Below are positions 86-17,149 of a stretch of DNA of 17,149 nt, piece by piece (the first letter of the stretch is position 1; each line of letters begins with the position of its first letter). A program made the position numbers and the translations under genes. The notes under the pieces are model-generated. The model did not search any database. It saw nothing but the letters and a program-made list of their open reading frames with translations, and was not told the origin of the DNA. This DNA is from Candidatus Aminicenantota bacterium (GTDB lineage: Bacteria > Acidobacteriota > Aminicenantia > UBA2199): the NCBI GenBank assembly GCA_020355945.1, contig CP070627.1:326760-343908 (forward strand), read 5' to 3'.

Positions 86-101
86 TTTAAATTCTTCCTC
101 T
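86..101 (-). promoter_or_regulatory. Ribosome binding site for the gene starting at 85
   Basis: On the minus strand AGAGGA occupies 101-96, about 10 nt before the ATG at 85, and lies within the last codons (RRGRI) of the upstream NRPS gene. This supports translational coupling and makes the 28-codon fragment a real gene start. Confidence 0.65.
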
Positions 102-3100
102 TCTTATTTCCAGGCTTTGTTTCAACCGGTTTTGCCCTTTTTTTAATTGACTCGAACGTTCTTTCTGTTTATGGGAAGGATGGTGTGTTGTTTCTTCTTG
201 AAGCAAATGAGCTGCCAAAGAGTTAATGGTGGGGTACGTAAATAGCGTTACTGTCGGTGTATCTTTTTGAAGTTTTTCTTTCAATTTGCTCCCCACTATG
301 ACAATATCAAGAGAACTTCCACCAAGGTCAAAGAAATTGTCCCGGGTTCCCACCCTATCCATTTTAAGTACCTCTTGCCAGATAGCTGCAATTAGCTTTT
401 CCATATTGGTTTTGGGGGGCACATAAGTTATATTTCCTGTTGAAGGGGTCCGCCTGGGTTCCGGGAGCGCTTTTTTATCTACTTTTCCATTTGAAGTCAA
501 CGGAATTCTATCCAATGGTAAAAAATAGTTGGGAATCATATAAGGCGGCAGTTGTTTCGACAAATAATCCCTCAATTCAGCCACCAAACTTCTATTGTTT
601 TCTCCTGCCTGGCGGGGAACAAAATAAGTACACAGGTATTTATCACTGGTTTCACTGGGTTTATTTTGCCGAACCCCAATTCCCTTTAAGAAATTTTCAT
701 ACCCGGTTTCGGTCACCTTAACATTCAAGTCTTCTTGTAGGTTTTCCAGGGTTAGATGGCCCAGCCGTTTTTCCCAACTGGAAGCACCGCCATAATAATG
801 ATACCCTTTTCCCATTTGATGACTGTAGTCCCCCATCTGTTTGATAGGACAATTGGTGGAATAAACGGAAAAAGTTTTCCGGCCCTTCCAGTAAGGGTCC
901 CTATTATCGAGATATGTGATCATTTCCTGGTTTGTAATGTCAAAATAGCGGAAGAAATCTACAAATTTGACTTTATCGTGCACAGCGCCATTTTTAATCA
1001 AATCGATATCGATATAGGCATAAATACTTTTATCCATTTCAGGGGCACCCTTTTGAAGATTTAAAATTTCGTTTTCGATATCTTTTTCATTGGTAATGCC
1101 TTGCTGCAAAAACATAAACATCCGGTTTTCAATGATTTGACCTCGTGATAATGTCGCTCCTACCACCACAGGAATATCGTGTTTGTACGCATACTCACCG
1201 GCAAGGGAAGCAGAGGTATGAAAACAGCCCCGGCACACAGTGGCAGCTACTTTGATACTTTCGGCAAGAATCTTATCCGAATTTTTGTGTGTCAACACCA
1301 CATGGTCTACTCCCACGGATGAGGTTATACTCTTTATATTCTCCAACTGGGTCTTGGAAAAATACCCATTATCGTAGGTTAAAGCCAGCACATTAAACCC
1401 CATGTCTACCAGTTGGTACATGGCATACCCGGCCCCCCTTCCGCCTGCATAGAGGAGCAGACAATCGTACTTACTTTTTTGGCTTTTATTGGCCTCATGA
1501 ATGAACTGTTTCAATTGCTCCGGGATTTTAAAATAATTGTCAATGTATTTCTTATTTTTGCTATAAAACTCACAAATATTACAGACATTATCCATGTTGA
1601 TGGTGACAGAAGGATAACAGGTGGTGATCCCACAGGTTTTGCATTTTTTGACATTTTTTGCAGATTCCCGGTTATCCAACACCACGGTGACGCATTCGCT
1701 CACAGCAGGATGAGTGGAGAGCACCGTTTCTATTTCTCCCAATTCGATCCGATGGCCTCTTATCTTTACTTGCTCATCAATTCTTCCCATTATCTCGATA
1801 TTTCCATCTTCAAGCCATCTACCAATATCACCGGTTTTAAGTAATTTCCCGCTGCCGAAGGGATTTTTTACAAAGGCACCGGTTGTTTTTTCCCAGTTGT
1901 TGATGTAGCCCCTGGACACACTGTTACCGGCGATGCATATCTCTCCGGCCATCTTCAAAGGCACAGGCCGCAAATTTTGATCAAGAATGTAGATATTATT
2001 ATTGTGCACCGGTGTGCCGATGGGTACGATCGAACGTTCATCACAGCGATCGAGATCATAATAAGTATTGTTGATGGTACATTCTGTGGGACCATAAGTA
2101 TTTACAATCTTACCTGCGAAATACTTATAGAAGTTCTTAACCACTCCCATGGTAATGGGTTCTGCGCCAATAATCAGCCAGGGTAATTTCAACCTGGGTT
2201 TCTGGGTTTTGGTGTCCAGGAGGTAGGTCATGATATTTACCAGGGTAGCTGGGCAGTACATCATGGTCAATCCTGTATCTTCGGCCATTAACCGGATTAA
2301 GAATTCCGCATCTTTGCGTTGGTAGGTATCCAGGATTTTTACACTGCCACCGATATATAGGGGCCAGAAAATTTCCCATACAGAAGGATCAAAGGTCAAA
2401 TCGGTACGGTTGACAATTACAGCGTTTTGGTCCAAATTAAATTTATCCTGCATCCAAGAGATACAGTTGTTCACCTGGCGATGCTCCACCATCACCCCTT
2501 TCGGTTTTCCGGTTGAACCCGAGGTATACATCACATAGGCCAGGTTAGCGTCACTGGCGGCGGGTGCTGGATTCTCGCAATTTTCCGTGACCATGGCATC
2601 GTCGAGCCGGTCCAGGAGCAGGATTTCGCGAGATTGAACCAGGGCCGGGGTATTATGCCGAAAGGCGATTCCTTTGATCCCGCCTAACACCTCGGGACCT
2701 GGAAGCAGGAAATCATTGGCTAACATCTTTTCGATCAATTCTGCAAGGGTATACTCGCCTTCTCCCAATACCACCAGATCGATGTTACTGTCTTTTAAGA
2801 TGGTGTTATAATCACTGGAGGCATAGGGACCACCGGTGATTATAGGGGCGCCCACTCCCCATTGCCTCAGGAAGGCAGCGGCTTCATGAAAAAATTCCTT
2901 GAAAAAAGTCAATGTCCGAAGACCCACCAGGTCAGGTTTGAAATCCTCTATCAATACTTTGAGTTCCTGGAAACTATCAAAATCATTGCCGGATTTATAA
3001 ATCCGGCCGTCGATTTCATCTGCGAATCGTTCTTTTAGATAAGTTAAGAGAGAAATAAGCCCCAATGGCTGTTCCACCACCCGGTACAACATGCTGTGGG

Positions 3101-5408
3101 AACTGAAATGCTGAGATAGATCCAGCAAGAGTATCTTTTTGGCATCAGGTTTGGCCGGGGGTATTTCAGGACCCAGGTTAAATAGAGTTTTACTCTCCTC
3201 TTTTTCCTGTTGATTGATATAGTCTTCCAGGACCTGAAGCTCATCTAATCGGGCAAATTCGATCAGGTCCTGTATTGTCTCAATTTCCACAGGAAGATAA
3301 GCGTTGTATTTCTGTACCAGGGCGGTTTCGCTGAGTACCTTCATCTGGTGAGGCAGTACATGTAACAACCGCTCTTTATCCAGGAAGTAATCATTTAAAA
3401 AATTCGCCTGGTACTTACGAGTAAAACTTTTGGGAAACGGCAAAGTTTCCGGCAATTCATGAAAGGCCCGGTTCCTGGATACCAGGATATCTTTTTTGCA
3501 TACCCCATGCTCCAGTGCAAAAGCTTCCATTTCAGTATTAGGAAATATCTTTAATATATGGATGTAAGGAAAATGAAGCCACTTGATACTCTTGATAAAA
3601 TCCAATGTCATCATGGCCTCTTCTTCAGTTTCCGTGGGAAATCCGTGCATGGAGGCCATTTCCAGGATCACATTTGGATGACGAGTAGAAATATAATCCA
3701 TCACCTCTTTGAATTTATCCAGGTTGAGATATTTCCTCAACAATTTTTGAAACCGGGGGGAGGCGCTTTCCAATGAGAGGTTAATACCGCGGGTGCCAGC
3801 CTCCACCATCAAGTCAATGTAATCCGGCGTCATAATGTCTCCCCTTAAACCATTGGGAAAGAAAAGCTGGACCTCTAATTTATTCTCTACGATCAACTGG
3901 AATACCCGACGGCTTTTTTCAATGTTCAAATTGAAACAATCATCGATGAAGGCGAAATTGGTAACCCCCTGTTGGTAATAATGTTCGATTTCACAGTAAA
4001 TCTTTTCCGCACTGCGGTACACATGGTGTTTGGACCATATTTTATGGCAGAATAGGCAGTGATAGGGACAGCCGCGGGTGGCCTGGAAGGAAATACAGTT
4101 GGTAACGCTGGCCATACCGATCTTGTTTTTATAATTTTGCAGGTTGATGAGGCGTCGGTTCGGGCGGGGGAGTCGGTCAAATCCTGCAATATGGGGCCGC
4201 GGCGGTGTCACTGTTACCCGGATGCCCTGCTTGCCCTCAAATCCCTGGAGAGCGGTAAAAGATTTACCCTCGATGGCCTGGTTGGTGGAAATCAATGCCG
4301 CGGCGCCGGAATCCTCCAGCATGTACCGCACCCTCTCCTCCGGCAAGCCGGGGTCAATGGGTAAATAGGCTCCCCCGGCCTTTAAAATCCCCATTAAACC
4401 CACCAGCATATCTACGGAGGGTTCAAGCATAATGCCCAGCACAGATTCGGTGGTGGTACCTTTTTTCCTCAGCAGATGACCCAGTTGATTGGCTCGTTTA
4501 TTCAATTCTCTATACGTCATATCTGTTCCTGCGACAACTATATTTTCAGGGAAATTCTTTACCTGTTTTTCAAATAATTCATGTATCGGTTGGGAAAATC
4601 TATTCATTTTTTGGTTATCATTAAAATCAACCAGCAGGCGCTTCTTCTCAGCCTCTGTTATGATATCCACCTGGGATAGGGGCGTATTTAAATCAATCAG
4701 AACACCTTGCAGCAGTTGACAATAATGGCCGAGAATTGACTTTATTGACGTTTTCTTATAAAGAACCGAATTATACTCGACCACACCCTGCACCTCTGAC
4801 TCTGTCTTGGAGAAAGAAAAAATCATATTGGGATGAATGTGTTGAATATATTTTTTATCGTGAATATTTTCAAGCAAAATTGCAACATCGAATAAAGGAA
4901 AATCATTTCCTGAATATGGCAATTTTAACTTTTGCAGCAGCAGCTCTATCGAGTAATTCTGATATTCATCCGCTTCAAGAATGGTCTCTCTCACGTGAAG
5001 TAATAGTTCTTTAAATGTTAAATGGTCCGTCACATGATTTCTTAACGCCACGATGGTATTGACAAACTCCGCATCGGTATCCTGTTTAAAAATAGGGGCC
5101 CCCACGATAATATCTTTGCTGCCGCTGTATTTATTCAGCAATACCACCAGGAGGGCAGTCAAAATCATAAATAATTTTATGTCTGAGCCGCCGCAGATAT
5201 TCATTAACATTGAAAAAGAGGAATCGGTGATCCTGAATTTTGCATCGGTGCCAATTGGCTCATGCGGCATTACTGTTTTGCGATCATGAGGGAAGCCAAT
5301 TTTTAACAACTGGCCCGATAATTTTTTTAACCAGTAATCTTCCTCTTTGGTAAATTGGTGTGAGATAACCGATACTTCACTGGAAATCCTTTGGCTTATT
5401 GCTTCCAT
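87..5408 (-). CDS. Single-module NRPS: half-C, A domain interrupted by radical SAM/B12-like and PP-loop domains, PCP
   Basis: This 1773-residue NRPS activates one building block as an acyl-adenylate and loads it on its carrier domain. Residues about 17-260 match only the C-terminal lobe of a condensation domain (YWLKKLSG, DIIVGAP, FVNT); the HHxxxDG lobe is absent. The A domain starts near 275 (TYRELN, LKAGGAYLPIDP to 352), is broken by a radical SAM/cobalamin-type insert (about 378-945), resumes at YTSGSTGKPKG (961-971), NTYGPTE and the A8 motif (about 1209-1228), is broken again by a PP-loop domain (about 1248-1583), and closes with the A10 lysine (SNGKVDKKAL, K1642). PCP Ser1699 lies in LGGSSL. 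The last 35 residues are basic, like a docking tail. All A-domain catalytic motifs look intact. The start is fixed by GAGGAG 6 nt upstream. It lies 15 nt after the methylthiotransferase gene. The substrate is not predicted. Confidence 0.97.
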   Translation of the reverse strand: MEAISQRISSEVSVISHQFTKEEDYWLKKLSGQLLKIGFPHDRKTVMPHEPIGTDAKFRITDSSFSMLMNICGGSDIKLFMILTALLVVLLNKYSGSKDIIVGAPIFKQDTDAEFVNTIVALRNHVTDHLTFKELLLHVRETILEADEYQNYSIELLLQKLKLPYSGNDFPLFDVAILLENIHDKKYIQHIHPNMIFSFSKTESEVQGVVEYNSVLYKKTSIKSILGHYCQLLQGVLIDLNTPLSQVDIITEAEKKRLLVDFNDNQKMNRFSQPIHELFEKQVKNFPENIVVAGTDMTYRELNKRANQLGHLLRKKGTTTESVLGIMLEPSVDMLVGLMGILKAGGAYLPIDPGLPEERVRYMLEDSGAAALISTNQAIEGKSFTALQGFEGKQGIRVTVTPPRPHIAGFDRLPRPNRRLINLQNYKNKIGMASVTNCISFQATRGCPYHCLFCHKIWSKHHVYRSAEKIYCEIEHYYQQGVTNFAFIDDCFNLNIEKSRRVFQLIVENKLEVQLFFPNGLRGDIMTPDYIDLMVEAGTRGINLSLESASPRFQKLLRKYLNLDKFKEVMDYISTRHPNVILEMASMHGFPTETEEEAMMTLDFIKSIKWLHFPYIHILKIFPNTEMEAFALEHGVCKKDILVSRNRAFHELPETLPFPKSFTRKYQANFLNDYFLDKERLLHVLPHQMKVLSETALVQKYNAYLPVEIETIQDLIEFARLDELQVLEDYINQQEKEESKTLFNLGPEIPPAKPDAKKILLLDLSQHFSSHSMLYRVVEQPLGLISLLTYLKERFADEIDGRIYKSGNDFDSFQELKVLIEDFKPDLVGLRTLTFFKEFFHEAAAFLRQWGVGAPIITGGPYASSDYNTILKDSNIDLVVLGEGEYTLAELIEKMLANDFLLPGPEVLGGIKGIAFRHNTPALVQSREILLLDRLDDAMVTENCENPAPAASDANLAYVMYTSGSTGKPKGVMVEHRQVNNCISWMQDKFNLDQNAVIVNRTDLTFDPSVWEIFWPLYIGGSVKILDTYQRKDAEFLIRLMAEDTGLTMMYCPATLVNIMTYLLDTKTQKPRLKLPWLIIGAEPITMGVVKNFYKYFAGKIVNTYGPTECTINNTYYDLDRCDERSIVPIGTPVHNNNIYILDQNLRPVPLKMAGEICIAGNSVSRGYINNWEKTTGAFVKNPFGSGKLLKTGDIGRWLEDGNIEIMGRIDEQVKIRGHRIELGEIETVLSTHPAVSECVTVVLDNRESAKNVKKCKTCGITTCYPSVTINMDNVCNICEFYSKNKKYIDNYFKIPEQLKQFIHEANKSQKSKYDCLLLYAGGRGAGYAMYQLVDMGFNVLALTYDNGYFSKTQLENIKSITSSVGVDHVVLTHKNSDKILAESIKVAATVCRGCFHTSASLAGEYAYKHDIPVVVGATLSRGQIIENRMFMFLQQGITNEKDIENEILNLQKGAPEMDKSIYAYIDIDLIKNGAVHDKVKFVDFFRYFDITNQEMITYLDNRDPYWKGRKTFSVYSTNCPIKQMGDYSHQMGKGYHYYGGASSWEKRLGHLTLENLQEDLNVKVTETGYENFLKGIGVRQNKPSETSDKYLCTYFVPRQAGENNRSLVAELRDYLSKQLPPYMIPNYFLPLDRIPLTSNGKVDKKALPEPRRTPSTGNITYVPPKTNMEKLIAAIWQEVLKMDRVGTRDNFFDLGGSSLDIVIVGSKLKEKLQKDTPTVTLFTYPTINSLAAHLLQEETTHHPSHKQKERSSQLKKGQNRLKQSLEIRRGRI
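655..1670 (-). other. Decayed PP-loop ATP pyrophosphatase domain inserted between A8 and A10
   Basis: Residues about 1248-1583 of the 1773-residue NRPS resemble N-type ATP pyrophosphatases of the WbpG/WbuX sugar-amidotransferase and ExsB-like kind. A zinc-ribbon-like start has C1256, C1259, C1276 and C1279. A YDCLLLY strand leads to the nucleotide loop, which here reads AGGRGAGY (1321-1328) instead of SGGKDSSY in the sister copy. The downstream TYDNGYFSKTQLENI, VCRGCF (C1392, C1395), FVDFFRY and STNC (C1520) segments are conserved, but the first cysteine of the CSTNC motif is Tyr1516. Loss of the loop's Lys, Asp and both Ser suggests it no longer cleaves ATP and may act as a scaffold or partner. 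The reading frame is intact, so the domain seems maintained. Confidence 0.9.
2574..4277 (-). other. Radical SAM plus cobalamin-binding-like domain inserted between A2 and A3 of the A domain
   Basis: Residues about 378-945 of the 1773-residue NRPS replace the normal 30-50 residue A2-A3 linker. A segment resembling the pre-radical-SAM linker of B12-dependent enzymes comes first (RPHIAGFDRLPRPNR). The radical SAM core follows with CxxxCxxC at C447, C451 and C454, a GxNLSLES strand and a HGFPTETEEE motif, then a helical tail to about 745. Residues 757-905 form a Rossmann-like domain with the signature of cobalamin-binding halves of radical SAM enzymes (QPLGLISLLTYL, FKPDLVGLRTLT, ITGGPYAS, VVLGEGEYTLAELI). 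The DxHxxG cobalamin ligand is absent, as in many radical SAM B12 proteins. Family members methylate unactivated carbon or rearrange substrates, so modification of the tethered amino acid is a plausible inferred role. Domain order is the reverse of the usual B12-then-SAM order. Confidence 0.9.
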
Positions 5409-5423: not shown

Positions 5424-6716
5424 TTAAAATGTAAAATCATCGTTTTCGGTTAGACGGATTTTTGATTTTGCCCTCATTAGGCCTGGATCATCCACCACAT
5501 TTTCTATCTCATCTTTAAAGGTATCTTTACAAAACGTATAGTTCCTTTCATGTGTCAATTGGAACGCCACATCCATCATGCTTGCATCTTCTGATTTGTA
5601 ATTGGATGAGCATTTCTGAAGAGTTTTATCAAAAATCTCCCAACGGCGTACCAATTGGGATGTGGAGAGTTTCCCGTCAAATTTATAAGAGGGTGCACCT
5701 TTAACATCGCTATAAGCAAAATGCCTTACATTGTTAAAGCAAGTATCTTTTTCAAAGAATTCCACCAACTGGGCAAACATTTCTTCGGTTTCCCCGGGAA
5801 ACCCCACAAGAATATCGGCTTCCAGGAACACATCCGGACATTCTTTTTTTAGATGTTTTATAAACCGGTACAATTCTGAAAATACGATGGGACGTCCCAT
5901 GCGCTTAAGGAGCCGGTCGTTGACGTGTTGAAGCCCCACATGTAATTCTTTGACAATCCCCCTTTTACACAGGGACAGGATACCTTCCTTGTACTCTAAA
6001 AGCCACTTGATATGTAAACTTCCGAAATTCAATTCTACCTGCGAATCGATCGCCAACATGGACTCCACCAGCTCGATAATGTTGCTGCCTGTATCCTTCC
6101 CATAAGCCAATGTATCTTCACCCATGAGGTATATTCTTCTTTTTCCCTGTTTGATCGCCTTTCTAAACTGCTTCAAAATTTCATCATCGGGTGTGCTTTT
6201 AATATATCCTTTGGCTTTATTAATAACACAAAAAGTACATCTTGTCAGGCACCCCTGGGCTATTTTAATATGGAAGTATTCGTTCCTCTCGTCCAAGTTA
6301 CATTCTTTGAAAGGTCTGAGTAAATTATTGGGGGTAATTTCACCAAAAGGTACACGGGCATTGATGATGTCATCCAAATGCTTTTCCCGGTTGAAACCGA
6401 TTATTTTTACTTTTAATTTCTCCATTAATTCTGCTTCATGGGTTTTCGATTGACAGCCCATGATGATTATGTTATTCTCCAGGAAGTGACGATCTTTTAA
6501 CTCCTTGACGGTCTTGATCACCTTTTCATGCATCACATCATGAAAACCGCAGCAGCATATAATCACCTTGTCAACATTAAAATCCTCTGCAACCTCCCAT
6601 CCGTTGATGATGAAATATTTCTCAATATTGGAATAATATTGGACGTGTCTTTCACAATTTACATTATTGGTGACAATTGCCACCCTTTTTCTTAGTGTTA
6701 CGGAATCGCTACGCAT
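5424..6716 (-). CDS. MiaB/RimO-like radical SAM methylthiotransferase
   Basis: This 430-residue protein fits the methylthiotransferase family, which inserts sulfur and a methyl group at C-H bonds using two [4Fe-4S] clusters. The N-terminal region carries the expected auxiliary-cluster cysteines at C21, within a CCC run at 54-56 (the NTC-type position) and in MGCQS (C88). The radical SAM core has CxxxCxxC at C156, C160 and C163 (QGCLTRCTFC), and DILVGFPGETEE at 301-312 is a strong family marker. About 55 residues follow the core, with no clearly recognisable TRAM (RNA-binding) domain, so the substrate may not be tRNA. It lies between two NRPS genes (gaps of 36 and 15 nt), which makes the peptide or a carrier-bound intermediate the likely target. 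That is inference; a tRNA or protein target, as for MiaB or RimO, is not excluded. Confidence 0.9.
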   Translation of the reverse strand: MRSDSVTLRKRVAIVTNNVNCERHVQYYSNIEKYFIINGWEVAEDFNVDKVIICCCGFHDVMHEKVIKTVKELKDRHFLENNIIIMGCQSKTHEAELMEKLKVKIIGFNREKHLDDIINARVPFGEITPNNLLRPFKECNLDERNEYFHIKIAQGCLTRCTFCVINKAKGYIKSTPDDEILKQFRKAIKQGKRRIYLMGEDTLAYGKDTGSNIIELVESMLAIDSQVELNFGSLHIKWLLEYKEGILSLCKRGIVKELHVGLQHVNDRLLKRMGRPIVFSELYRFIKHLKKECPDVFLEADILVGFPGETEEMFAQLVEFFEKDTCFNNVRHFAYSDVKGAPSYKFDGKLSTSQLVRRWEIFDKTLQKCSSNYKSEDASMMDVAFQLTHERNYTFCKDTFKDEIENVVDDPGLMRAKSKIRLTENDDFTF

Positions 6717-6752: not shown

Positions 6753-9700
6753 TCAAAAATTAAAATCCACTGCCGTGCCCTTTGAAACAGAGGGCTTTGC
6801 CACTGTCAGATGGTGTGAAATGGTGATATCTTTAAGTTTTATATCATTATTTTCCACCACCTGTTTAAGGATATTTACATATCGTTCAGCGAATTTTTCG
6901 GCCCATACCCGTTTAAACAGAGCGATTGAGTATTCCAGTATCATGGTTATGGAATCGTTGGCTTCTGAGGCTACCAGTTGAAAATCAAAACGGGATACCC
7001 TGGTTTTAAAATCGTAAGGTGTGATTTCCAGTCCTTCAATTTCGATCTTGTCGATTTCCATATTTTGGACGACAAATGCCGCGTTAAATAGGGGGTTTTG
7101 ACTGAGGTCACCGGTAACCCCCAATTTACGTACCAACTCTTCAAAGGGATATTCTTGGTTTTCATATCCTGCCAACGTGATATCCTTTACCTCATGTAAA
7201 AATTTACTATATGTTTTGTCGGGCTGCGGTTGAATCTTGATGGGAAGGGTATTGACAAAAAAACCGATGATATTTTCAACATCCGGGTGGGTTCTCCCGG
7301 AAATTCCCAGCCCCACCACGATATCTTTTTCCCCTGAGTATTTGGACAATAGGATAGCGTAGGCTGCTAACAATACCATGTTTAACGTGGTTTTCGTTTG
7401 TTGGGTCAATCGTTTTAGGGCCCCGCTCAGCCAGCTGTCCAATACAAAATGGAAAATGTCCCCTTCAAACGATTGAACCAAGGGCCTTGGGAAATCCTTG
7501 GGAATATCCACCACAGGTACACCGTCACTAAATCTCTCTAACCAGTATTTCTCCTGTTTTTTTTGTGTCTCACTGCCTTTCTCGCGATTTTGCCATTGGG
7601 AGAAGTCTTTATATTGGACCCTTAAGGGCCGCGGTTCCATTTCCCTGTAAAGGGCCATAAAATCATTAATGAATATACCATTGGAAAAACCATCGGTGAT
7701 GATATGGTGCATGTCTAACAGGAACAGGTGTTCTTCATGGGCAAACTCCACCAATAAAGCCTTTAATAATGGCGGTTTCTCAAGGTCAAACGGTTTTATA
7801 AAGTCGTTTATGATACTTGTTATTCCCGGTTCACCGTGCTCCCAATGGCCGCTCAATTTTAACGATTCAATTTCAAAATTAACGTGCTCATGGATGACCT
7901 GTACCGGTTGTCCATCTATGATAGTAAATGATGTGCGCAGACTATCATGTCTTTTTATCATCCTGTTGAAAGTATCCTCGAAAAGATTCTTTTCAATCCT
8001 GCCTTTAATTACCCAGGCGGCCGAAATATTGTAAACATTCCCGGTATTTGCCAATTTTTCAATAGTAAACAATCTTTTTTGCGCACTCGATAAATTGTAG
8101 TATTCTTTTTTTTCTATGGTTTCGATGGAAAAAAATTTTTGTTTTACTGCTCCTTGAATACAATTAGAGATTTCTCTTATTGTCGGGCCTTGAAAAAAAT
8201 CTTTAAGAGAAAATTTAACATCCATGGTTTGATGTAACCTGGCGGCGAATATAGTTGCCTTTAGTGAATGACCTCCCAGATGGAAAAAATTGTCATTAAT
8301 ACCGATTTTTTCTTTTTCCACGTCCAGGATTTCAGACCATATGTCTACCAATTTCTTTTCAATAGAATTTGTCGGCGCTGCATACTTGCCAGCATCGACC
8401 TTGAATCCAGGTGCGGGCAGTGCTTTTCTATCAACTTTCCCACTGGAAGTACGCGGCAGGTGTTCCAATCTCACAAAATAAGAGGGTACCATATATCCAG
8501 GTAGACGCCTCAACAAAAATAACCTCAATTCAGATATAGGAATTTCAAGGTTGGAACCAATATAAGCACATAGATAGTTATCTCCTTTTTCATCTGTTCC
8601 GGCGATGACAGTGGCCTCCTCGACCTTTTCCAGGCTTGATAAGTGACCTTCGATTTCCTCCAATTCGATGCGGTAACCTCTTATCTTTAACTGGCGATCG
8701 CTTCTTCCCAAAAATTCAATATTTCCGTCCGGTAACCATCTGGCCAGGTCACCGGTTTTGTATAATTTAGCCACCAAGGCACCAAGGCACCAAGAAAAAT
8801 AAACATCTTTGTGTCTTTGTGTCTTTGTGGCTAATATAAATTTCTCTGCGGTTAATTCCGGCCTATTTAAATAGCCCCTGGCAACACCGCGGCCAGCGAT
8901 AAACAATTCGCCCGGGATTCCTATGGGCTGGAGTTCTCCAACAGCCGAAAAAATGTAAACCCTCATATTGCCAAGAGGACGACCAATGGGGATTCGTGGG
9001 TGCTCATTGATGGTTTCTTTGACAATCCTGTATGAAGTGGTGACATCACAGCATTCTGTGGGACCATACACATTAATAATCTTAAATTCCTTTTTACCCA
9101 CTGCACTGATAAATTTTTCACACAATGTCTTACCCAGTTCCTCCCCCCCGACGATAAACTGCTCTACAGGGAACAACCACCCCAATCGATCTTGATAATT
9201 TATCAATATGTTGAGGTGTGCCGGGGTGCCATCTGCCACCCTTATTCTCCTCTCTTTATAGAAAGCAATTAGCTTCTCCCCATCAAACCGCTCCTCCTCC
9301 GGTACAATCTCCAACTTATGGCCCAGGAGCAGTGATGGAAATATCTGTTTTATGGATGCATCAAAGATAATTGGAGACACCCAGGAGACGTTTATCGCAT
9401 TTTCATAAAAATATACCTTCTCTTTTAACCCTATCACCAGGTTAAGAACACTTTTATGCTCAATCATGGCACCTTTGGGAGTCCCTGTGGTCCCGGAGGT
9501 GTAGATGACGTAAGCCAGGTTTGTAGGATAGGAAGCAGGTAAGAGGGGAACAGAGGTAGTGGAGAAAGGAAAAAGATATGAGAAATTGAGGAAAACGATT
9601 TCGAGGTTTCTCTCCTCTTTCCACTTTCTTATCTTACTATCTTCTTTATATAATTCAATGGTGGTTACCAGCACTTTAACACTGCTGTCAGCTAACATAT

Positions 9701-12700
9701 CATTGGTCCTCTCCTCCTGGTAATCCACATCAATGGGTAAATAGGCACCACCTGCCTTTAATATTCCCATTATACCGATTATCATATCCAGGGAACGCTT
9801 CACCATTAAACCTACCACCATGTCCGCTTTCACACCTTTAACCCTCAATACTTGTGATAACCAATTGGAGGTTTCATGTAATTCCCGATAATTCAACTGT
9901 CTATCTTTATACACCACAGCTAGTTGATCGGGGGTTCGTTCCGCCTTTTCTTCAAAATTTCCATGAAGAGTATTTTCCCCTGGATAAACTGACAATGTAT
10001 CGTTGAAATTAAATAATATCCGTTTTCTTTCTTCGCCAGTGATGATATCTATCCCGGATATCCTGGTTTCATAATTCTCAAGTACGGTAGTAACTGTTTT
10101 TTTGAAAAAACCGATAAACCTCTGGATAGTTTCCCTTTTAAAAAGGCTGATACAATATTCGAAGGTAAAACTCAGGCGATCTTCTATTTCTACTGCCGCC
10201 AATGTAAGATCAAATTTTGATTTCCGGCTTTTATAATGATAAGGCATTACTTTTAATCCTGGTATTTCGATGGCAGGTGTATCCACATTTTGTAGGGCAA
10301 ACATCGTATCAAATAAGGGGTTACGACCAATATCCCGTTCAACCTCCACCTGGTCCACCAGGTCTTCGTAGAGATAATCCTGGTTTTCAAAGGCTTTTAT
10401 TGTGTTTTCTTTTACTTCCCCTAAAAACTGACCGAAAGTCTTTTCCATGACGGGAAAATTCCGAAGCGCCAGTGTATTAACAAACATACCGAATATGCCT
10501 TCTAAATCAGTGTGCCTGCGACTGGCTATGGGAGTACCCACCACAATATCTTCCTGGCCCGAAAGTTTGCATAAGAAAATAGTATAAACGGAAAGGAGCA
10601 GCATGAACAAAGTGACATCCTGTTCACGGGCCAGGGATTTTAAGGCAGCGGTTTCTTCTTTATTTATCTCGAAATGAACGGTCCCCCCGGAAAAACTCTG
10701 CACCGATGGCCGGGGATAATCCGCGGGAAGATCTAATACCGGTGCTTCCCATTTAAACTGTTTTAACCAGTAGTTCTTCTGTTCCTTCATAAACTCTTTT
10801 CCTACCTGCCGATTGTGCCATTCGCTGTAGTCTCTATACTGTAGTCTTAACGCAGGCAAACTCTTGCCCCCATACAGTTGTGTGAATTCTTTTACAAATA
10901 TTCCGATAGATAGTCCATCCGATATGATGTGATGCATATCCACCATTAAGATGTACTCACCCTCTTTTCCCTCTTGAGAGGGGTGGCCTCGAAGAGTGGT
11001 CGTGGTGTGTGGAAGTTTTATCAACCTCACCCGCAGCAGCGGCGCCTGGGATAAATCAAAGGGTTTGATAAAATTCTTGATTATATCTTCAATTTCGCTT
11101 TCCTCAGCTTCACCAATGACCAATGACCAATGATCAATGACGGTTTCCTCATGCACCCGCTGCACATGTTCATCACTTACCACGGTGAAGAAAGTTCTTA
11201 AGCTCTCATGCCGCCGGACCAATCGAAGGAAAACACCTGCAAATTTTTCCGTATCCAGTTCCCCCTGAACCTGCCACACCGATGGTATGTTGTACGCAAT
11301 TCCCTTTTCAGCATCCATCTGCTGGAGAATATACAGGCGTCTTTGGGCGGATGATAAGTAGTAATATTCCTTTTTTTCAACCGGTTCCACCGGGACGTAA
11401 TTACTTCTGGCCATTTCTTTAATATATGAGGCCAGACCACGGATGTGGGGTGTTTTAAATATCTCGCTGAGAGGGACGTTTATATTGAATTCTTTATGTA
11501 TTCGTGATGCTAACACCGTGACTTTTAAGGAATGCCCCCCCAGATGGAAAAAATTAGCATCGATACTGATTTTCTCTTTGCTGATACCCAGGACTTCCGA
11601 CCATATTTCCACCAACTGCATCTCAATATCATCACGGGGACCCGTGAAATCCACCGGCACATTTCCACGTTCCGGAGCGGGTAAAGCTTTTCTGTCTATC
11701 TTACCATTGGGGGTTAAAGGTATCTTATCCAGCTTAATAAAAAACGAGGGGATCATATACCCCGGTAATTCATTCGACAGGTATTTTCTTAATTCATCAA
11801 CATCTATGTCTCTATCTGAAACAAAATACGCAGATAGATATTTATCCCCCCTGGCATCTTTTTTATCCACCACCACGGCTTCCTGGATGGGTTGTTCCCG
11901 GTAACCGATTTCTTTAAAAATCTCCTGCACTTTCGGTAAATCCACTTTATACTGGACTTCTTCCAGCAGTTCCCCCCGTTTGCCCTGACCCAGTCGGCAG
12001 TCCCAACTCAATGGTGCTTCATAATTATGATAGCCCCTGTCTTTCAAATGCACATAAATGCCCACGTCGTTAATAATGCAATTGGTGGAACAGAAACCCG
12101 TATCCCCTGGCTGATGCCAATACACATCCCTTTCCCGCAAATAATCCTTGATCTTCTCTTGGGGCGTGTCATCATACCTGAAAAAATCCACGAAATAGAT
12201 GTCGTCAAAGATATTATCTTCAAGGTTAATATTTAATAACTTTGAAGTTTTATCAGGGGTGGAGTGATACATTTTCCTGAATAACAGGAGCTTTTCTTCG
12301 ATCTCCGGCACGTTGAATATATTCTGACTGGCCAACCCGGATAATTTGGTATCCATGATCTGCCCCCGGGACAGCCCGGTCACGATCACATTGATATTTC
12401 TTTCCACTGCCAACTGGGTACTGATGGTGGTCAACGCTTTAAAACATCCACTGCATACTGTATGATCATATTTCAGGCATTCCCGGAATATTTCCTTCAT
12501 ATTGTCCGTTTTACTCACGATACTCTCCACCTTTAACGCTGAAGTGATCCGCCGGATATTCTCAAAGGCAGTAGCGGAAATATACCCGTTATCAAAAGTG
12601 AAAGCCAGCACTTTTAACCCCATTTCCACCAGGCGGTATAAGACGTAAGAGCTGTCTTTACCACCACTGAACAAAAGCATACAGTCATACTTGCTGCGCT

Positions 12701-15700
12701 TTCTTTTCCCGGCTCTCTCCATAAGCTTTTTAAAGACCTCTATTCCCTCAAAATACAGCCCAATCCGGTCTTTATATTCTTCATATTCCCGGCATACACT
12801 GCAAATGCCCTCCTTGTCAAAATGAATACCCGGGTAATTGGACGATAATAAGCAGCGTTTACAATAGGTAATACCCTCAAAAGTAAAATTTTTTTTATAA
12901 TGGAGCAACCGGGATTCGATTTCGCCCAATTCGATGCGAAATCCCCTGACCTTGACCTGGAAGTCGATTCGGCCCAGGAACTCCAGGTTCCCATCCGGCA
13001 GCCAACGGGCCAGGTCCCCGGTGCGGTAAAACCTGTCATTGATCATTGGACATTGGTCATTGGGGGAGAACTTAGAAGAACTACTAATGACTAATGACGA
13101 ATGGCCATTGACAGCTCTTACAAATTTCTCCGCTGTTAACTCCGGGTTGTTTAAATACCCCCGGGCCACTCCTACACCACCAATATATAATTCCCCGGTC
13201 ACGCCGAAGGGGACCGGCCCCATCCCTTGATCCAGTATATATATATAGGTATTGTGCAGCGGTCTGCCAATGGGTAATTGAAGGACACTCTCACCCACCT
13301 GTCTCACCGGTAATTCAATTGAAGTGACTGTGGTTTCAGTGGGTCCGTATTCATTATAGAATCTGCAGTGTTTATGCCAGCGCACGGCCAATTCCACCGG
13401 GCACGTATCTCCTCCTGCCACCACCCGCTTTAATGGGTAGAAGTCATTCATTTCGATAGTTTCCAGGAATGAAGGTACAGCATGGATATGCGTGACCTGG
13501 TGGTTCAGTAAATATTTTCCAAATTTATCCTTGTCCAGGAGAGTATTCTTACCCACCAGCACCAACACAGAACCGCTGAATAATGCAATAAAGATTTGTT
13601 CTACGGATGCATCAAAACAAAGAGAAGAAAACTGCAATATATGATCTCTTTCATCGATGTTAAAGACCTCTTTTTGGGCCCAGGCCAGGTTGATTACCGA
13701 CAATTGCTCTATCACAACTCCTTTGGGGGCACCGGTGGAACCCGAGGTATACAACACATAAGCCGGATCCTTCGGGTGACTGGCAATACCGGGATTTGAA
13801 CTTTCACCATTGGCCGCTGCTTCTTCATCGATATGGATAGCTTCTGCGTACAGGCTCATCTCTCCCGGTAGTGGATGTTGACTTAATACCAGCCTGGCCT
13901 GGCTGTCTTTAATCATATATATCAGCCGGGTTTCCGGGTATTCCGGGTCCACTGGCAGATAGGCGGCAGCACACTTTAGTACTGCTATTATACCGGTAAT
14001 CACCCCGGGCTGGCGTTCCTCCATCACAGCGGCAATGCTTCCCCAGGTTAACCCCTTTGCCTTCAATAAATGCGCCGTCTGATTGGCTTTTTTATTCAAT
14101 TCCCGGTAACTGAGCACCCGGTCATCCAATACCAGTGCAGTATGATCAGGGGTTCTCCCTGCCTGTTCTTCAAATAATTGCCGGAGAGTTTTATCATTTG
14201 GATATTCGGCTTTCGTATTGTTTAACGTATACAGCAATAAATCCAACTCTCCTTTATCCAGCATAGGCAGTCTGGAAATTTTTTTGTCCGCATGGGTCAG
14301 GATTTCTTGCAGCAGCCGGTTATAATGACTCATCATTTGATCGGTGGTGGTATCGTCGAAAATATCGGTATTGTATTCCCATACGATTTCGATTCGCCCG
14401 CCTGTTTCTTCGCTTCGTTCTTCCGTCGGCGGTTCCACGATGATGTTGATGTCGAATTTGGACGAACGGTTGTGCGCGGCTTCTACCTCCAGTTTCAAAC
14501 CCGGTAACTGCAGCCGGTCTGACGGGGTATCCATAAAACTTAATACCACCTGGAATACCGGTGTATAGCTTAAACTTCTTTCGGGCTGGATAATTTCCAC
14601 GACCTTTTCAAAGGGGGTATCTTCATGCTCGTATGCTTCCAGGCAGGTAGTTTTTACTCGCTGGAGACACTCATCAAAAGATAATTCCCCCGATATCCAG
14701 TTGCGCAGCGCCAGGGTATTGATCACCATGCCCAGCATCCCTTCGGTCTCCTTGTATCTCCGGTTGGCCATCCCGGTACCGATGCACAAATCATTACTGC
14801 CGGTATACCGATACAATAATACGTTAAACACCGCCAACATGGTCATAAATAAGGTAACTTCCTTTTGACGGCTGAATGCGATCAAGTTATCAGATAACGA
14901 TTTGGAAAGAAACAGTCGCTTTTCAGCCCCTTTTCCACTGATGACCGGTGGCCTGGGACGATCCGTGGGCAAATTCAATATCGGGGGTAAACCGGAGAGT
15001 TTTTCCTTCCAGTAGGCCAGGTGATTTTCCAGTACCTCTCCTTGCATTTGCTGCCTCTGCCAATAGGCAAAATCACCGTATTGAATGGGCAGTCCAGGTA
15101 AATGCGCGGGTTTTCCCTTTGAAAAAGCGGTAAACAGGGTGATAAATTCCTTTAACAATACCCCCTGCGTCCAACCGTCATGGATCAAATGGTGCTCAGT
15201 GATTACCAGCAGGTGTTCCGTGGGTTTTAACCTCAGCAGCGTTATGCGGATCATGGGGCCTTTTTCAAAATCAAAGGGCCGTTGGCCTTCTTCTTTAATC
15301 CAGCGGGTGACCTCTTCGTTTTGAAAGGATTGTGCCATGCCGCTCAAATCAATGATGTTTAATTTAAAGGGGGTATGGGCCTGCACCCGCTGCACCGGAC
15401 GCCCTTCCACGGTGGGAAATACCGTCCGCAATATTTCATGACGCCGGGTTATCTCGTTAAAGGTTTGTTCTACCGCGGCCACATTCAATTGCCCGATCAT
15501 CCGTACTACACGGGGAACAAAGTAGGCCGTGGTTTCACTGTCCAGTTGATGCAAAAACCACAACCGCTCCTGGGCAAAAGATAAAGGGATGTCTACCCCG
15601 GGCGGTGCTTTCGTGATGAATACCGCATTGCCCCCCAGGGTTTCTATTTCCCCGGCTAATTCTTTTATGGTAGGGTGCTGGAAAAACTTCCGCACCGGCA

Positions 15701-17149
15701 GTTCAACGCCGAATACTTCCCTCATGCGGGTAATGGCACGGATCACCAGCAGCGAATCCCCCCCCAATTCAAAAAAGTTGTCCGTCATCCCGATCCGTTT
15801 CACCCCGGTTACTTCCCGCCAGACAGCCGCCAGTTTTTTTTCTTTTTCACCCCGGGGTGCCACATATAAATGCCGGACGTCCGGGGTTTCGCTCTCGCCA
15901 TCCGGCTCCGGCAGCAGGCGCCGGTCGATCTTACCATGCGGGGTCAGCGGAATTTTTTCCAACCTGACAAAATAAGAGGGAACCATGTAACTCGGTAGTC
16001 GAGAGGATAGATATTCCCTTAAACCTGTGACAGCTAAGGCTTCATCCGATACAATGTAAGCACATAAATACCGTTCGGCCGATGCTGTTGCCATGGATGC
16101 AGGATGTCTTTCCAGGGCTATTACCACGGCGGCTTTTACCTGTTCATGGGCCATTAAATGATTTTCTATCTCCCCCGGTTCGATACGGAATCCCCTGATC
16201 TTGACCTGGAAATCAACCCGGCCGATAAATTCGATATTGCCGTCCGGGAGCCGCTTGACCAGGTCGCCGCTGCGATACCACAGGCTGTCACCGGTCAGGG
16301 GAAGTTTGATAAATTTTTCGGAGGTTAACCGGACATCATTGATATACCCCAGTCCCAGCCCTTTTCCCCCGATGAACAATTCTCCCGCCGCACCAATGGG
16401 AAGCGGTTGAAAACAACGATCCAATACCAATAATCCCGTATTGTTAACCGGCTTTCCTATTGGAACTGCCCCGTTCAAAAAATCCCCGGGCCGCTTTACC
16501 GGGTAAAAAGCGCAAATGTCCGTACATTCGGTAGGGCCGTAGGTATTGACTATCTCCCCTTTAAAATAGCCCGATGTCACCCATTGCCACAGCATGTTCA
16601 TGGCAATGGGTTCCCCCCCCAAAAACAGGTACTTTAAAGATGACAGTTTTTCCAGACTGCCGGGAGCCTGGTGTTCGATAATCTTATAAATCATGCCGGG
16701 GGTACAATTGAGCCAGGTGACTCCTTTCTCCAGTATAATGTCTTGTATCGCCCCCGGGTCAAAATAGTCCAGTCCCGGCAATATTAAGATGCCCCCCGTG
16801 ATCAGGGGAGCAAAAATATTCTTCTGGGTCAAATCGAAACTCAGGGAAGTGACCAATAAATTCCTGTCATGGGCACCCAGTTTAAATTGGGTTACAAACC
16901 AGTTCATGAGATTAAAGAAACCACTGTGAAAGACCCCCGCACCTTTGGGTTTACCCGTGGAACCCGAGGTATAGATAATATAGGCCGGGCTGTCACCGCC
17001 GGGAAACAGGCCCGGGTTTTCCCCGCTCTCTTTCTCGATTTCAACATGCCATTGGTCAGGGCAGAGGATTTTTCCTTTGTAATTATCCATAACCCCTGCC
17101 ATGAAATTACCTTGCCTCCGGCGGCCAGGGGCTCTTTTTGAAAAAACCG
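6753..17149 (-). CDS. Multimodular NRPS: A-PCP-C-A(PP-loop)-PCP-C-A-PCP-C (5' end beyond window)
   Basis: This is the elongation synthetase of the cluster. Numbering from the ATG at 17102, the domains are: A1 (to about 400, YTSGSTGKPKG at 44-54), PCP1 (S450 in LGGDSL), C1 (about 503-935, HHLIHDG from H637), A2 (about 970-1805, interrupted by a PP-loop domain at 1401-1735), PCP2 (S1858), C2 (about 1905-2345, H2057), A3 (about 2385-2895, YTSGTTGTPKG) and PCP3 (S2946). It ends in a complete C3 (about 2998-3425, H3132) with a short tail ending VDFNF. All three C domains keep HHxxxDG; no epimerase, methyltransferase or thioesterase is seen. The ATG at 17102 is probably internal: it would delete the N-terminal half of A1, and the frame is open to the edge. 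C3 should join the chain to the block loaded by the 1773-residue NRPS. Short repeats interrupt A2, C2 and A3 in frame. Confidence 0.96.
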   Translation of the reverse strand, partial: VFSKRAPGRRRQGNFMAGVMDNYKGKILCPDQWHVEIEKESGENPGLFPGGDSPAYIIYTSGSTGKPKGAGVFHSGFFNLMNWFVTQFKLGAHDRNLLVTSLSFDLTQKNIFAPLITGGILILPGLDYFDPGAIQDIILEKGVTWLNCTPGMIYKIIEHQAPGSLEKLSSLKYLFLGGEPIAMNMLWQWVTSGYFKGEIVNTYGPTECTDICAFYPVKRPGDFLNGAVPIGKPVNNTGLLVLDRCFQPLPIGAAGELFIGGKGLGLGYINDVRLTSEKFIKLPLTGDSLWYRSGDLVKRLPDGNIEFIGRVDFQVKIRGFRIEPGEIENHLMAHEQVKAAVVIALERHPASMATASAERYLCAYIVSDEALAVTGLREYLSSRLPSYMVPSYFVRLEKIPLTPHGKIDRRLLPEPDGESETPDVRHLYVAPRGEKEKKLAAVWREVTGVKRIGMTDNFFELGGDSLLVIRAITRMREVFGVELPVRKFFQHPTIKELAGEIETLGGNAVFITKAPPGVDIPLSFAQERLWFLHQLDSETTAYFVPRVVRMIGQLNVAAVEQTFNEITRRHEILRTVFPTVEGRPVQRVQAHTPFKLNIIDLSGMAQSFQNEEVTRWIKEEGQRPFDFEKGPMIRITLLRLKPTEHLLVITEHHLIHDGWTQGVLLKEFITLFTAFSKGKPAHLPGLPIQYGDFAYWQRQQMQGEVLENHLAYWKEKLSGLPPILNLPTDRPRPPVISGKGAEKRLFLSKSLSDNLIAFSRQKEVTLFMTMLAVFNVLLYRYTGSNDLCIGTGMANRRYKETEGMLGMVINTLALRNWISGELSFDECLQRVKTTCLEAYEHEDTPFEKVVEIIQPERSLSYTPVFQVVLSFMDTPSDRLQLPGLKLEVEAAHNRSSKFDINIIVEPPTEERSEETGGRIEIVWEYNTDIFDDTTTDQMMSHYNRLLQEILTHADKKISRLPMLDKGELDLLLYTLNNTKAEYPNDKTLRQLFEEQAGRTPDHTALVLDDRVLSYRELNKKANQTAHLLKAKGLTWGSIAAVMEERQPGVITGIIAVLKCAAAYLPVDPEYPETRLIYMIKDSQARLVLSQHPLPGEMSLYAEAIHIDEEAAANGESSNPGIASHPKDPAYVLYTSGSTGAPKGVVIEQLSVINLAWAQKEVFNIDERDHILQFSSLCFDASVEQIFIALFSGSVLVLVGKNTLLDKDKFGKYLLNHQVTHIHAVPSFLETIEMNDFYPLKRVVAGGDTCPVELAVRWHKHCRFYNEYGPTETTVTSIELPVRQVGESVLQLPIGRPLHNTYIYILDQGMGPVPFGVTGELYIGGVGVARGYLNNPELTAEKFVRAVNGHSSLVISSSSKFSPNDQCPMINDRFYRTGDLARWLPDGNLEFLGRIDFQVKVRGFRIELGEIESRLLHYKKNFTFEGITYCKRCLLSSNYPGIHFDKEGICSVCREYEEYKDRIGLYFEGIEVFKKLMERAGKRKRSKYDCMLLFSGGKDSSYVLYRLVEMGLKVLAFTFDNGYISATAFENIRRITSALKVESIVSKTDNMKEIFRECLKYDHTVCSGCFKALTTISTQLAVERNINVIVTGLSRGQIMDTKLSGLASQNIFNVPEIEEKLLLFRKMYHSTPDKTSKLLNINLEDNIFDDIYFVDFFRYDDTPQEKIKDYLRERDVYWHQPGDTGFCSTNCIINDVGIYVHLKDRGYHNYEAPLSWDCRLGQGKRGELLEEVQYKVDLPKVQEIFKEIGYREQPIQEAVVVDKKDARGDKYLSAYFVSDRDIDVDELRKYLSNELPGYMIPSFFIKLDKIPLTPNGKIDRKALPAPERGNVPVDFTGPRDDIEMQLVEIWSEVLGISKEKISIDANFFHLGGHSLKVTVLASRIHKEFNINVPLSEIFKTPHIRGLASYIKEMARSNYVPVEPVEKKEYYYLSSAQRRLYILQQMDAEKGIAYNIPSVWQVQGELDTEKFAGVFLRLVRRHESLRTFFTVVSDEHVQRVHEETVIDHWSLVIGEAEESEIEDIIKNFIKPFDLSQAPLLRVRLIKLPHTTTTLRGHPSQEGKEGEYILMVDMHHIISDGLSIGIFVKEFTQLYGGKSLPALRLQYRDYSEWHNRQVGKEFMKEQKNYWLKQFKWEAPVLDLPADYPRPSVQSFSGGTVHFEINKEETAALKSLAREQDVTLFMLLLSVYTIFLCKLSGQEDIVVGTPIASRRHTDLEGIFGMFVNTLALRNFPVMEKTFGQFLGEVKENTIKAFENQDYLYEDLVDQVEVERDIGRNPLFDTMFALQNVDTPAIEIPGLKVMPYHYKSRKSKFDLTLAAVEIEDRLSFTFEYCISLFKRETIQRFIGFFKKTVTTVLENYETRISGIDIITGEERKRILFNFNDTLSVYPGENTLHGNFEEKAERTPDQLAVVYKDRQLNYRELHETSNWLSQVLRVKGVKADMVVGLMVKRSLDMIIGIMGILKAGGAYLPIDVDYQEERTNDMLADSSVKVLVTTIELYKEDSKIRKWKEERNLEIVFLNFSYLFPFSTTSVPLLPASYPTNLAYVIYTSGTTGTPKGAMIEHKSVLNLVIGLKEKVYFYENAINVSWVSPIIFDASIKQIFPSLLLGHKLEIVPEEERFDGEKLIAFYKERRIRVADGTPAHLNILINYQDRLGWLFPVEQFIVGGEELGKTLCEKFISAVGKKEFKIINVYGPTECCDVTTSYRIVKETINEHPRIPIGRPLGNMRVYIFSAVGELQPIGIPGELFIAGRGVARGYLNRPELTAEKFILATKTQRHKDVYFSWCLGALVAKLYKTGDLARWLPDGNIEFLGRSDRQLKIRGYRIELEEIEGHLSSLEKVEEATVIAGTDEKGDNYLCAYIGSNLEIPISELRLFLLRRLPGYMVPSYFVRLEHLPRTSSGKVDRKALPAPGFKVDAGKYAAPTNSIEKKLVDIWSEILDVEKEKIGINDNFFHLGGHSLKATIFAARLHQTMDVKFSLKDFFQGPTIREISNCIQGAVKQKFFSIETIEKKEYYNLSSAQKRLFTIEKLANTGNVYNISAAWVIKGRIEKNLFEDTFNRMIKRHDSLRTSFTIIDGQPVQVIHEHVNFEIESLKLSGHWEHGEPGITSIINDFIKPFDLEKPPLLKALLVEFAHEEHLFLLDMHHIITDGFSNGIFINDFMALYREMEPRPLRVQYKDFSQWQNREKGSETQKKQEKYWLERFSDGVPVVDIPKDFPRPLVQSFEGDIFHFVLDSWLSGALKRLTQQTKTTLNMVLLAAYAILLSKYSGEKDIVVGLGISGRTHPDVENIIGFFVNTLPIKIQPQPDKTYSKFLHEVKDITLAGYENQEYPFEELVRKLGVTGDLSQNPLFNAAFVVQNMEIDKIEIEGLEITPYDFKTRVSRFDFQLVASEANDSITMILEYSIALFKRVWAEKFAERYVNILKQVVENNDIKLKDITISHHLTVAKPSVSKGTAVDFNF
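8769..8832. repeat. Imperfect hairpin of 8-bp tandem repeats inside the third A domain
   Basis: Arm one (8769-8794) carries the 8-bp unit CAAGGCAC in tandem; arm two (8807-8832) carries TTTGTGTC in tandem and is its reverse complement at 21 of 26 positions, with a 12-nt loop. It lies in frame in the NRPS gene, between ELTAEKF and the TGDLARW motif, adding about 20 residues (residues about 2758-2778, including TKTQRHKD) to a surface loop. Short elements of this appearance are, from memory, common between genes in many bacterial genomes, so insertion into a coding sequence is notable. Confidence 0.8.
10969..10982. repeat. Short palindrome in an extra loop of the second condensation domain
   Basis: CCCTCT-TG-AGAGGG is a perfect 6-bp inverted repeat with a 2-nt centre. 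It encodes part of a Gly/Ser/Lys-rich extension (PSQEGKEG) just before the strand leading into the HHIISDG motif of C2. The corresponding stretch in C3 (EFAHEEHLFLLDMHHI) is shorter by roughly 14 residues. The extension looks like a captured intergenic element, but the palindrome is short and could be chance. Confidence 0.4.
11114..11141. repeat. Tandem CAATGAC heptamers inside the second condensation domain
   Basis: Four consecutive heptamers (CAATGAC, CAATGAC, CAATGAT, CAATGAC) fill these 28 bases. They encode HWSLVI-like residues (about 1988-1997) in the N-terminal lobe of C2, just before the helix leading to the HHxxxDG region. The 28-nt run keeps the coding frame. The same heptamer recurs in inverted orientation at 13035-13062. 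Confidence 0.75.
11898..12902 (-). other. Intact PP-loop ATP pyrophosphatase domain inserted in the second A domain
   Basis: Residues 1401-1735 of the large NRPS interrupt the small C-terminal subdomain of A2, directly after the A8 motif (FRIELGEIES). A zinc-ribbon-like CxxC pair (C1414/C1417 and C1434/C1437, FDKEGICSVC) precedes the full nucleotide loop SGGKDSSY (S1479-Y1486) and FDNGYISATAFENI. VCSGCF (C1550, C1553) and CSTNC (C1671, C1675) could bind a metal or Fe-S cluster or carry sulfur. The architecture resembles WbpG/WbuX-type amidotransferases and, in its extra cysteines, TtuA/Ncs6-type sulfurtransferases. These enzymes adenylate a carbonyl oxygen, then replace it with nitrogen or sulfur. 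An amidine or thioamide on the loaded residue is therefore a reasonable inference. No glutaminase partner is in the window. Confidence 0.9.
13035..13105. repeat. Inverted heptamer repeat element inside the second A domain
   Basis: Four GTCATTG-type heptamers (13035-13062) are followed, after about 22 nt, by TAATGAC, TAATGAC and GAATGGC (13085-13105). The two arms can pair imperfectly (15 of 21 positions by hand). The unit is the reverse complement of the CAATGAC array at 11114. The element falls in the loop between ELTAEKF and the TGDLARW motif of A2, the same loop that carries a different repeat in A3, and adds about 25 low-complexity residues in frame. Confidence 0.75.

Follow-up and report, generated by a model that had tools for sequence, protein, structure and literature searches.

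An AMDH-like PP-loop domain within an adenylation domain of a Candidatus Aminicenantota nonribosomal peptide synthetase, with a predicted [4Fe-4S] cluster

Introduction

The insertion of an amide-tailoring domain into the adenylation (A) domain of a nonribosomal peptide synthetase (NRPS) is already known from CysH of the cystobactamid pathway and AlbIV of the albicidin pathway, where the inserted domain is of the AMDH type. Here these systems are compared with A2, an A domain of a 3449-residue NRPS encoded in a 17,149-nucleotide stretch of Candidatus Aminicenantota bacterium (assembly GCA_020355945.1, contig CP070627.1, forward-strand positions 326,760 to 343,908), which is called the window below. 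A2 is interrupted by a PP-loop domain that is most readily understood as an AMDH-type tailoring domain, and that would act in cis on the amino acid that A2 loads onto the neighboring peptidyl carrier protein (PCP) domain.

CysH provides the biochemical precedent. Its AMDH domain, described as alpha-ANH-like, converts L-Asn bound to CysH into beta-cyano-L-alanine by dehydration; deletion of the domain abolishes both the dehydration and the isoasparagine products, and isomerization to isoasparagine depends on the hydroxylase CysJ (PMC7966384; its author correction, PMC8429670, concerns misplaced labels in Figure 5). The domain has an SGGKD motif and its BLAST homologs all lay in A domains with an Asn code, and the mechanism of nitrile formation was unknown to the authors (PMC7966384). 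For AlbIV it was proposed that the side-chain amide oxygen is phosphorylated and that water is then lost (PMC8949500, available part).

The insert in A2

The PP-loop domain interrupting A2 is real, intact and complete (Table 1). A preliminary description of the window, made from the letters alone, had placed a zinc-ribbon and SGGKDS domain of the ATP pyrophosphatase type just after motif A8, at 11898-12902. This holds for a domain of 332 residues, as does its location in the mobile part of the A domain, with A8 before it and A10 and the PCP after it. The core motifs and PCP are intact on both sides of the insert (TIGR01733 match over residues 998-1402, A10 with Lys1801, PCP). The insert cannot be attributed to chance, because 194 proteins, the window's own included, match it at E<=0.001 (120 of the 194 are listed, and among these the best relative has E 3.1e-138), and because its AlphaFold2 model has a mean predicted local distance difference test score (pLDDT) of 95.4.

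Judged by the published description of the CysH domain, the insert has the expected size and motif (332 residues and SGGKDS, against about 38 kDa or 342 residues and SGGKD). In the window as in CysH and AlbIV, an SGGKD domain of about 340 residues lies within an A domain ahead of a carrier; the insert family likewise sits in carboxamide-coding A domains, and free-standing A-insert-PCP modules occur among the relatives. The window copy differs in belonging to a multimodular NRPS, in the code of its host A domain, and in being accompanied in the same gene set by a sibling with a degenerate PP-loop. CysH itself was matched at E 1e-50 in 0 of 395 genomes of a Myxococcota-labelled group, which was probably the wrong group to search, as the 20 genomes listed measure 5.3 Mb or less.

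Table 1. Features of the window (positions in the 17,149-nucleotide stretch)
Feature	Position	Strand	Remarks
3449-residue NRPS	17102..6753	minus	open reading frame without internal stop; start possibly further out, frame open to window edge
A2 adenylation core up to insert	14111..12897	minus	residues 998-1402 of the 3449-residue NRPS; TIGR01733 match
A2 motif A8, GFRIELGEIE	12944..12915	minus	precedes insert
Inserted AMDH-like PP-loop domain, 332 residues	12890..11895	minus	residues 1405-1736; type I (PP-loop intact)
Zinc-ribbon tetracysteine, CKRC...CSVC	12863..12792	minus	C1414, C1417, C1434, C1437
PP-loop, SGGKDS	12668..12651	minus	residues 1479-1484
CSGC	12455..12444	minus	C1550, C1553; aligned with LarE/TtuA [4Fe-4S] CxxC
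FCSTNC	12095..12078	minus	residues 1670-1675; C1675 putative third cluster ligand, C1671 variable
A2 C-terminal subdomain after insert	11894..11658	minus	with A10 LTPNGKIDRKALP (Lys1801)
PCP after A2	11585..11388	minus	LGGHSL
430-residue MiaB/RimO-type radical SAM methylthiotransferase-like gene	6716..5424	minus	between both NRPS genes
1773-residue NRPS	5408..87	minus	downstream NRPS gene
Circularly permuted B12-radical-SAM domain	4217..2628	minus	between motifs A2 and A3, same A domain as type II domain
Type II AMDH-like domain	1655..666	minus	after A8 of the A domain of the 1773-residue NRPS; SGGKDS replaced by AGGRGA

Conserved cysteines and a predicted [4Fe-4S] cluster

Conservation was read from an alignment of 240 rows, in which the rows with an intact PP-loop, the window copy included, form type I (n=120). 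All zinc-ribbon cysteines are Cys in 120/120 type I rows; a matching tetracysteine binds zinc in LpNASAT (8wex; PMC10607449, available part). Downstream of the ribbon, C1550 (119/120), C1553 (120/120) and C1675 (119/120) are near-invariant. By contrast, C1671 is Cys in only 57/120 rows and varies by clade (19/20 Gln-coded, 3/3 DAEH, 4/4 other and 31/93 Asn-coded rows), so that three of the four further cysteines that had been called conserved are so. In the other 120 rows the same zinc-ribbon and CxxC...C positions are Cys in 117-118, with gaps in the remainder.

C1550 and C1553 fall on known cluster ligands. In hhalign profile alignments the CSGC of the insert lands on the CYFC of LarE in 20/20 sequences, sampled from 46 genomes with an over-cut-off match, and on CSYC in 8/8 TtuA-type proteins, four of them over the TtuA cut-off; HMMER sets it on the CYNC of 8cnz, an entry titled mmLarE-[4Fe-4S]. 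For C1675, which is conserved, the alignments give no reliable match to the third Cys of LarE or of TtuA. The combination of CxxC...C with SGGxDS marks the [4Fe-4S] cluster in most LarE homologs, according to a published account that draws a comparison with TtuA (PMC9283937, available part). From its sequence, the insert probably carries a [4Fe-4S] cluster, with C1550, C1553 and C1675 as the predicted ligands.

CysH protein is dark brown, a color for which its authors give no cause, and no CxxCxxxC was found in CysH; nor is the CxxC...C of the inserts among the published CysH features (PMC7966384, available part). Since the CxxC of the inserts coincides in alignment with cysteines that bind the cluster in LarE and TtuA, an iron-sulfur cluster could explain the color.

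Host A-domain code and substrate

At the positions taken here to be the A-domain specificity code, A2 of the window reads DAEHVGEVT(K). The hosts of the 120 type I inserts have 93 DLTK codes, 20 DAQD, DPQD or DAWQ codes, three DAEH codes and four others, DPQD and DAWQ presumably being Gln-type codes. The code DAEHVGEVT or its near-twin DAEHIGEVT was found in 3/120 type I hosts, all interrupted, and in 0/105 uninterrupted A domains of the same proteins. DLTKIGEVGK is listed among Asn/cyanoalanine codes, and DAQDLGVVDK as a code for Glu and Gln (PMC12283262). As the A2 code differs from the Asn code of all homologs noted for CysH (PMC7966384, available part), the window insert is regarded as a variant of AMDH and not as an Asn-AMDH.

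The inserts track their hosts. In a tree built from 92 rows of the 240-row alignment (the full-length non-Asn type I rows, every second Asn row and 19 type II rows), the host-code labels require 10 changes, against a mean of 40.6 for shuffled labels, and the insert clades follow the host A-domain code. The five rows nearest to the window insert by path are Gln-coded, but the supported group around it mixes codes: of its 39 rows, 17 are Gln, 16 Asn, three other and three DAEH. The sequence evidence suggests that the substrate of A2 is probably a Gln-like carboxamide.

Genome context of the relatives

A scan of species genomes returned at least 590 pattern matches; 73 loci, to which the counts in this section refer unless other loci are named, are among the matches listed. 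The insert is carried by 36 of them (L001-L036) at 39-61% identity, from at least nine phyla as counted on 32/36. In 6/36 insert loci and in 5/6 loci of standalone relatives of about 30% identity (L037-L042, with L042 just 3.5 kb), 11/42 in total, the end of a glutamine-hydrolyzing asparagine synthase gene is no more than 2.2 kb away from the PP-loop stretch; an AMP-ligase-like stretch is also close by at the standalone loci. Of these 11 synthase genes, the 5 that were scanned score 474-537 bits against a cut-off of 267.1. The gene was absent from 31/31 loci of other PP-loop proteins in the same scan. It was present in 0/10 WbuX, 0/20 LarE and 0/12 TtuA loci, all of these being shorter stretches, and none lies within the window. 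An asparagine synthase beside some of the relatives fits a carboxamide substrate, the carboxamide being made first and then activated.

Around L001-L036, 141 of 178 predicted open reading frames (ORFs) were scanned for families, ORFs over about 480 residues and one overlapping ORF being excluded. Acyl-CoA-dehydrogenase-type genes make up 12/141, with PigA and prolyl-PCP dehydrogenase as the commonest NCBIfam matches, and a HupE/UreJ_2-like membrane protein gene is present in 12/42 loci (L002, L003, L008, L013, L015, L024, L026, L030, L031, L033, L034 and L035). These neighbors suggest a widespread cluster that may be pyrrole-type and metal-related. At L009, L010 and L025 the insertion point apparently divides the interrupted A domain between two genes, of which the downstream ORF begins with the PP-loop domain.

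Proposed chemistry and its alternatives

The proposed pathway would begin with the activation by A2 of an amino acid bearing a carboxamide, and its loading onto the PCP. ATP would then be bound at the PP-loop and, by what is predicted to be AMP chemistry, AMP would be passed to the side-chain amide oxygen with release of pyrophosphate. The activated imidate may lose AMP, a formal elimination of water that would yield a nitrile, or may be recaptured internally to give an iso-amide. The predicted [4Fe-4S] cluster on C1550, C1553 and C1675 would participate, perhaps as a Lewis acid through an open iron. Identity and role of the cluster, AMP chemistry, A2 substrate and product in this organism are all predictions.

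Amide-to-nitrile chemistry is carried out by QueC and ToyM. QueC (PF06508) is the best Pfam match of the insert (31.6 bits, cut-off 22), but against QueC TIGR00364 the insert scores 32.1 bits, under the cut-off of 150.3; the QueC-like nitrile synthetases include a Protein Data Bank entry titled nitrile synthetase ArtA.

The preliminary description had suggested that the amino acid is tailored while being activated or loaded, with a thioamide or amidine as a possible outcome. Tailoring during loading remains the most likely function, whereas thioamide or amidine formation gives way as the leading chemistry: CysH in assay yields beta-cyano-L-alanine and/or isoasparagine (PMC7966384, available part). 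As the insertion in CysH has been assayed as dehydrating or isomerizing, a nitrile or isomer formed by amide activation is better supported than either. Nor does the insert reach the cut-off of three families named in a proposed profile check, scoring 128.7 bits against WbuX TIGR03573 (cut-off 203.2; downstream sibling 81.3), 26.1 against LarE TIGR00268 (cut-off 150) and 26.3 against TtuA NF049949 (cut-off 450).

The alternative that survives best, although unlikely, is a sulfur insertase dependent on a [4Fe-4S] cluster, which would apply LarE/TtuA chemistry on an NRPS carrier and make a thioamide from an amide of the side chain or the backbone. Such an enzyme is suggested by the SGGKDS and CxxC...C, which make up the cluster signature described for LarE, by the alignment of the CxxC, and by Foldseek matches to TtuA, YcfA and LarE (E 1e-7 to 5e-5). 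The insert shares with LarE, TtuA and NcsA the PP-loop ATPase core and the position of the CxxC; like them it has a conserved Cys further downstream, which could not be aligned with theirs. It differs in falling far under the cut-offs and in an N-terminal ribbon that is NASAT-type. Furthermore, the CysH assay gave dehydration or isomerization with no added sulfur source mentioned in the available part of PMC7966384. Of the 89 Pfam families detected in the 141 neighboring ORFs, the 25 commonest include no sulfur-donor family, rarer families lying outside this view.

Less probable again is an aminomutase that makes an iso-amide residue and no nitrile. CysH does isomerize, in dependence on CysJ, but it also dehydrates unhydroxylated Asn (PMC7966384, available part), and a family profile search gave no hydroxylase match among the three genes of the window.

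Improbable, too, is a non-catalytic docking or structural role for the A2 insert, as may be suspected for the degenerate sibling. The sibling keeps its fold without the PP-loop Asp, and deletion of AMDH from CysH also ended O-methylation by CysQ, which the authors ascribed to protein contact (PMC7966384, available part); against this, the PP-loop, zinc ribbon and CxxC...C are all retained in the A2 copy, along with the remaining invariant positions.

WbuX, WbpG and LpNASAT share with the insert the zinc tetracysteine and SGGxDS. True WbuX proteins, over the cut-off, were found in 15/99 genomes of one genus and 10 were aligned; zinc ribbon and SGGKDS are present in them, and CxxC...C is absent in 10/10. 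It is present in both window inserts, in 12/12 other inserts sampled and in 6/6 standalone relatives below the WbuX cut-off, and its restriction to the inserts and sub-cut-off relatives in this alignment sets the inserts apart from true amidotransferases. A WbuX/NASAT-type amidotransferase forming an amidine from amide and ammonia is thus the least credible alternative, further weakened by the sub-cut-off score and by the lack of any glutaminase family among the same 25 commonest neighbor families, a set from which the longer asparagine synthase ORFs were excluded.

A PP-loop-degenerate sibling and a permuted B12-radical-SAM insert

The second, PP-loop-degenerate copy, in the downstream NRPS gene, was not mentioned in the preliminary description. 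In domains of this type II the zinc ribbon and CxxC...C are retained, as are most invariant positions, but the PP-loop is lost and its Asp is found in 0/117 readable rows (117 proteins, the window's own included). The window copy is modeled with the fold kept (pLDDT 92.9). Type II host codes are DPWY in 110/113 and DPFY in 3/113, position 4 being Y in one alignment and M in another, so that the Y given here is to be taken with caution.

In 114/117 of these proteins a B12-radical-S-adenosylmethionine (SAM) insert lies 318-399 residues upstream of the type II domain in the same A domain; the other three are truncated there. Aligned with standard profiles, its radical-SAM part falls on the second half and its B12 part on the first (residues 389-523 on KedN5 positions 28-159; residues 32-208 on PhpK positions 236-410), and because the halves match in swapped order the insert is taken to be circularly permuted. 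Methyltransferase-interrupted A domains carry a tailoring insert at the A2-A3 and A8-A9 sites. They likewise hold a tailoring domain in a loop between core motifs, of a different enzyme class, and the downstream NRPS of the window differs in having both sites occupied simultaneously. A literature search that covered PMC9259500 and PMC12858407 in their available parts, with preprints and most subscription papers outside its range, brought up no report of a radical-SAM domain within an A domain.

By BLAST, the permuted domain also shares an A domain with an intact PP-loop insert in three type I proteins (P0122, P0134 and P0136), at a distance of 345-351 residues, so that the combination is possible without loss of the PP-loop. 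In four others (P0127, P0150, P0153 and P0162) BLAST places it far off, in a different module that has no PP-loop insert. Among the doubly interrupted type II proteins are ones that bear the labels Ruminiclostridium cellulolyticum and Acetivibrio cellulolyticus. A clostridial cluster with a type II NRPS also contains a standalone CxxC...C PP-loop protein that is 26% identical to the insert (L115:9747-10865).

Other genes of the window

The window holds three genes, all on the minus strand: the two NRPS genes and, between them, a MiaB/RimO-like radical SAM gene of 430 residues, which scores 213.8 bits against the TIGR00089 cut-off of 251. This gene was considered as a partner of the PP-loop domains and rejected, as three clostridial genomes show none in the 40-kb stretches that surround their type II gene.

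Implications

For AMDH chemistry, of which CysH is the only assayed case found in print, the conserved CxxC...C, with its CxxC on the LarE/TtuA ligands, makes a [4Fe-4S] cluster directly testable. New here are the iron-sulfur signature, the spread of host codes, the genomic link to asparagine synthase, and the branch in which a degenerate PP-loop goes together with a permuted B12-radical-SAM domain.

A broader and more tentative proposal is that these domains form a [4Fe-4S] PP-loop amide-tailoring family of A domains reaching beyond Asn, in which A2 of the window would turn a Gln-like carboxamide into a nitrile or iso-amide. Downstream, the B12-radical-SAM domain and the sibling, which would keep cluster and pocket without the PP-loop Asp, may jointly tailor one carrier-bound residue in an undescribed reaction. 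The occurrence of the type II branch in proteins labelled R. cellulolyticum and A. cellulolyticus points to organisms where products might be sought. Together, the survey widens the family beyond Asn codes to A domains with Gln-type or unassigned codes.

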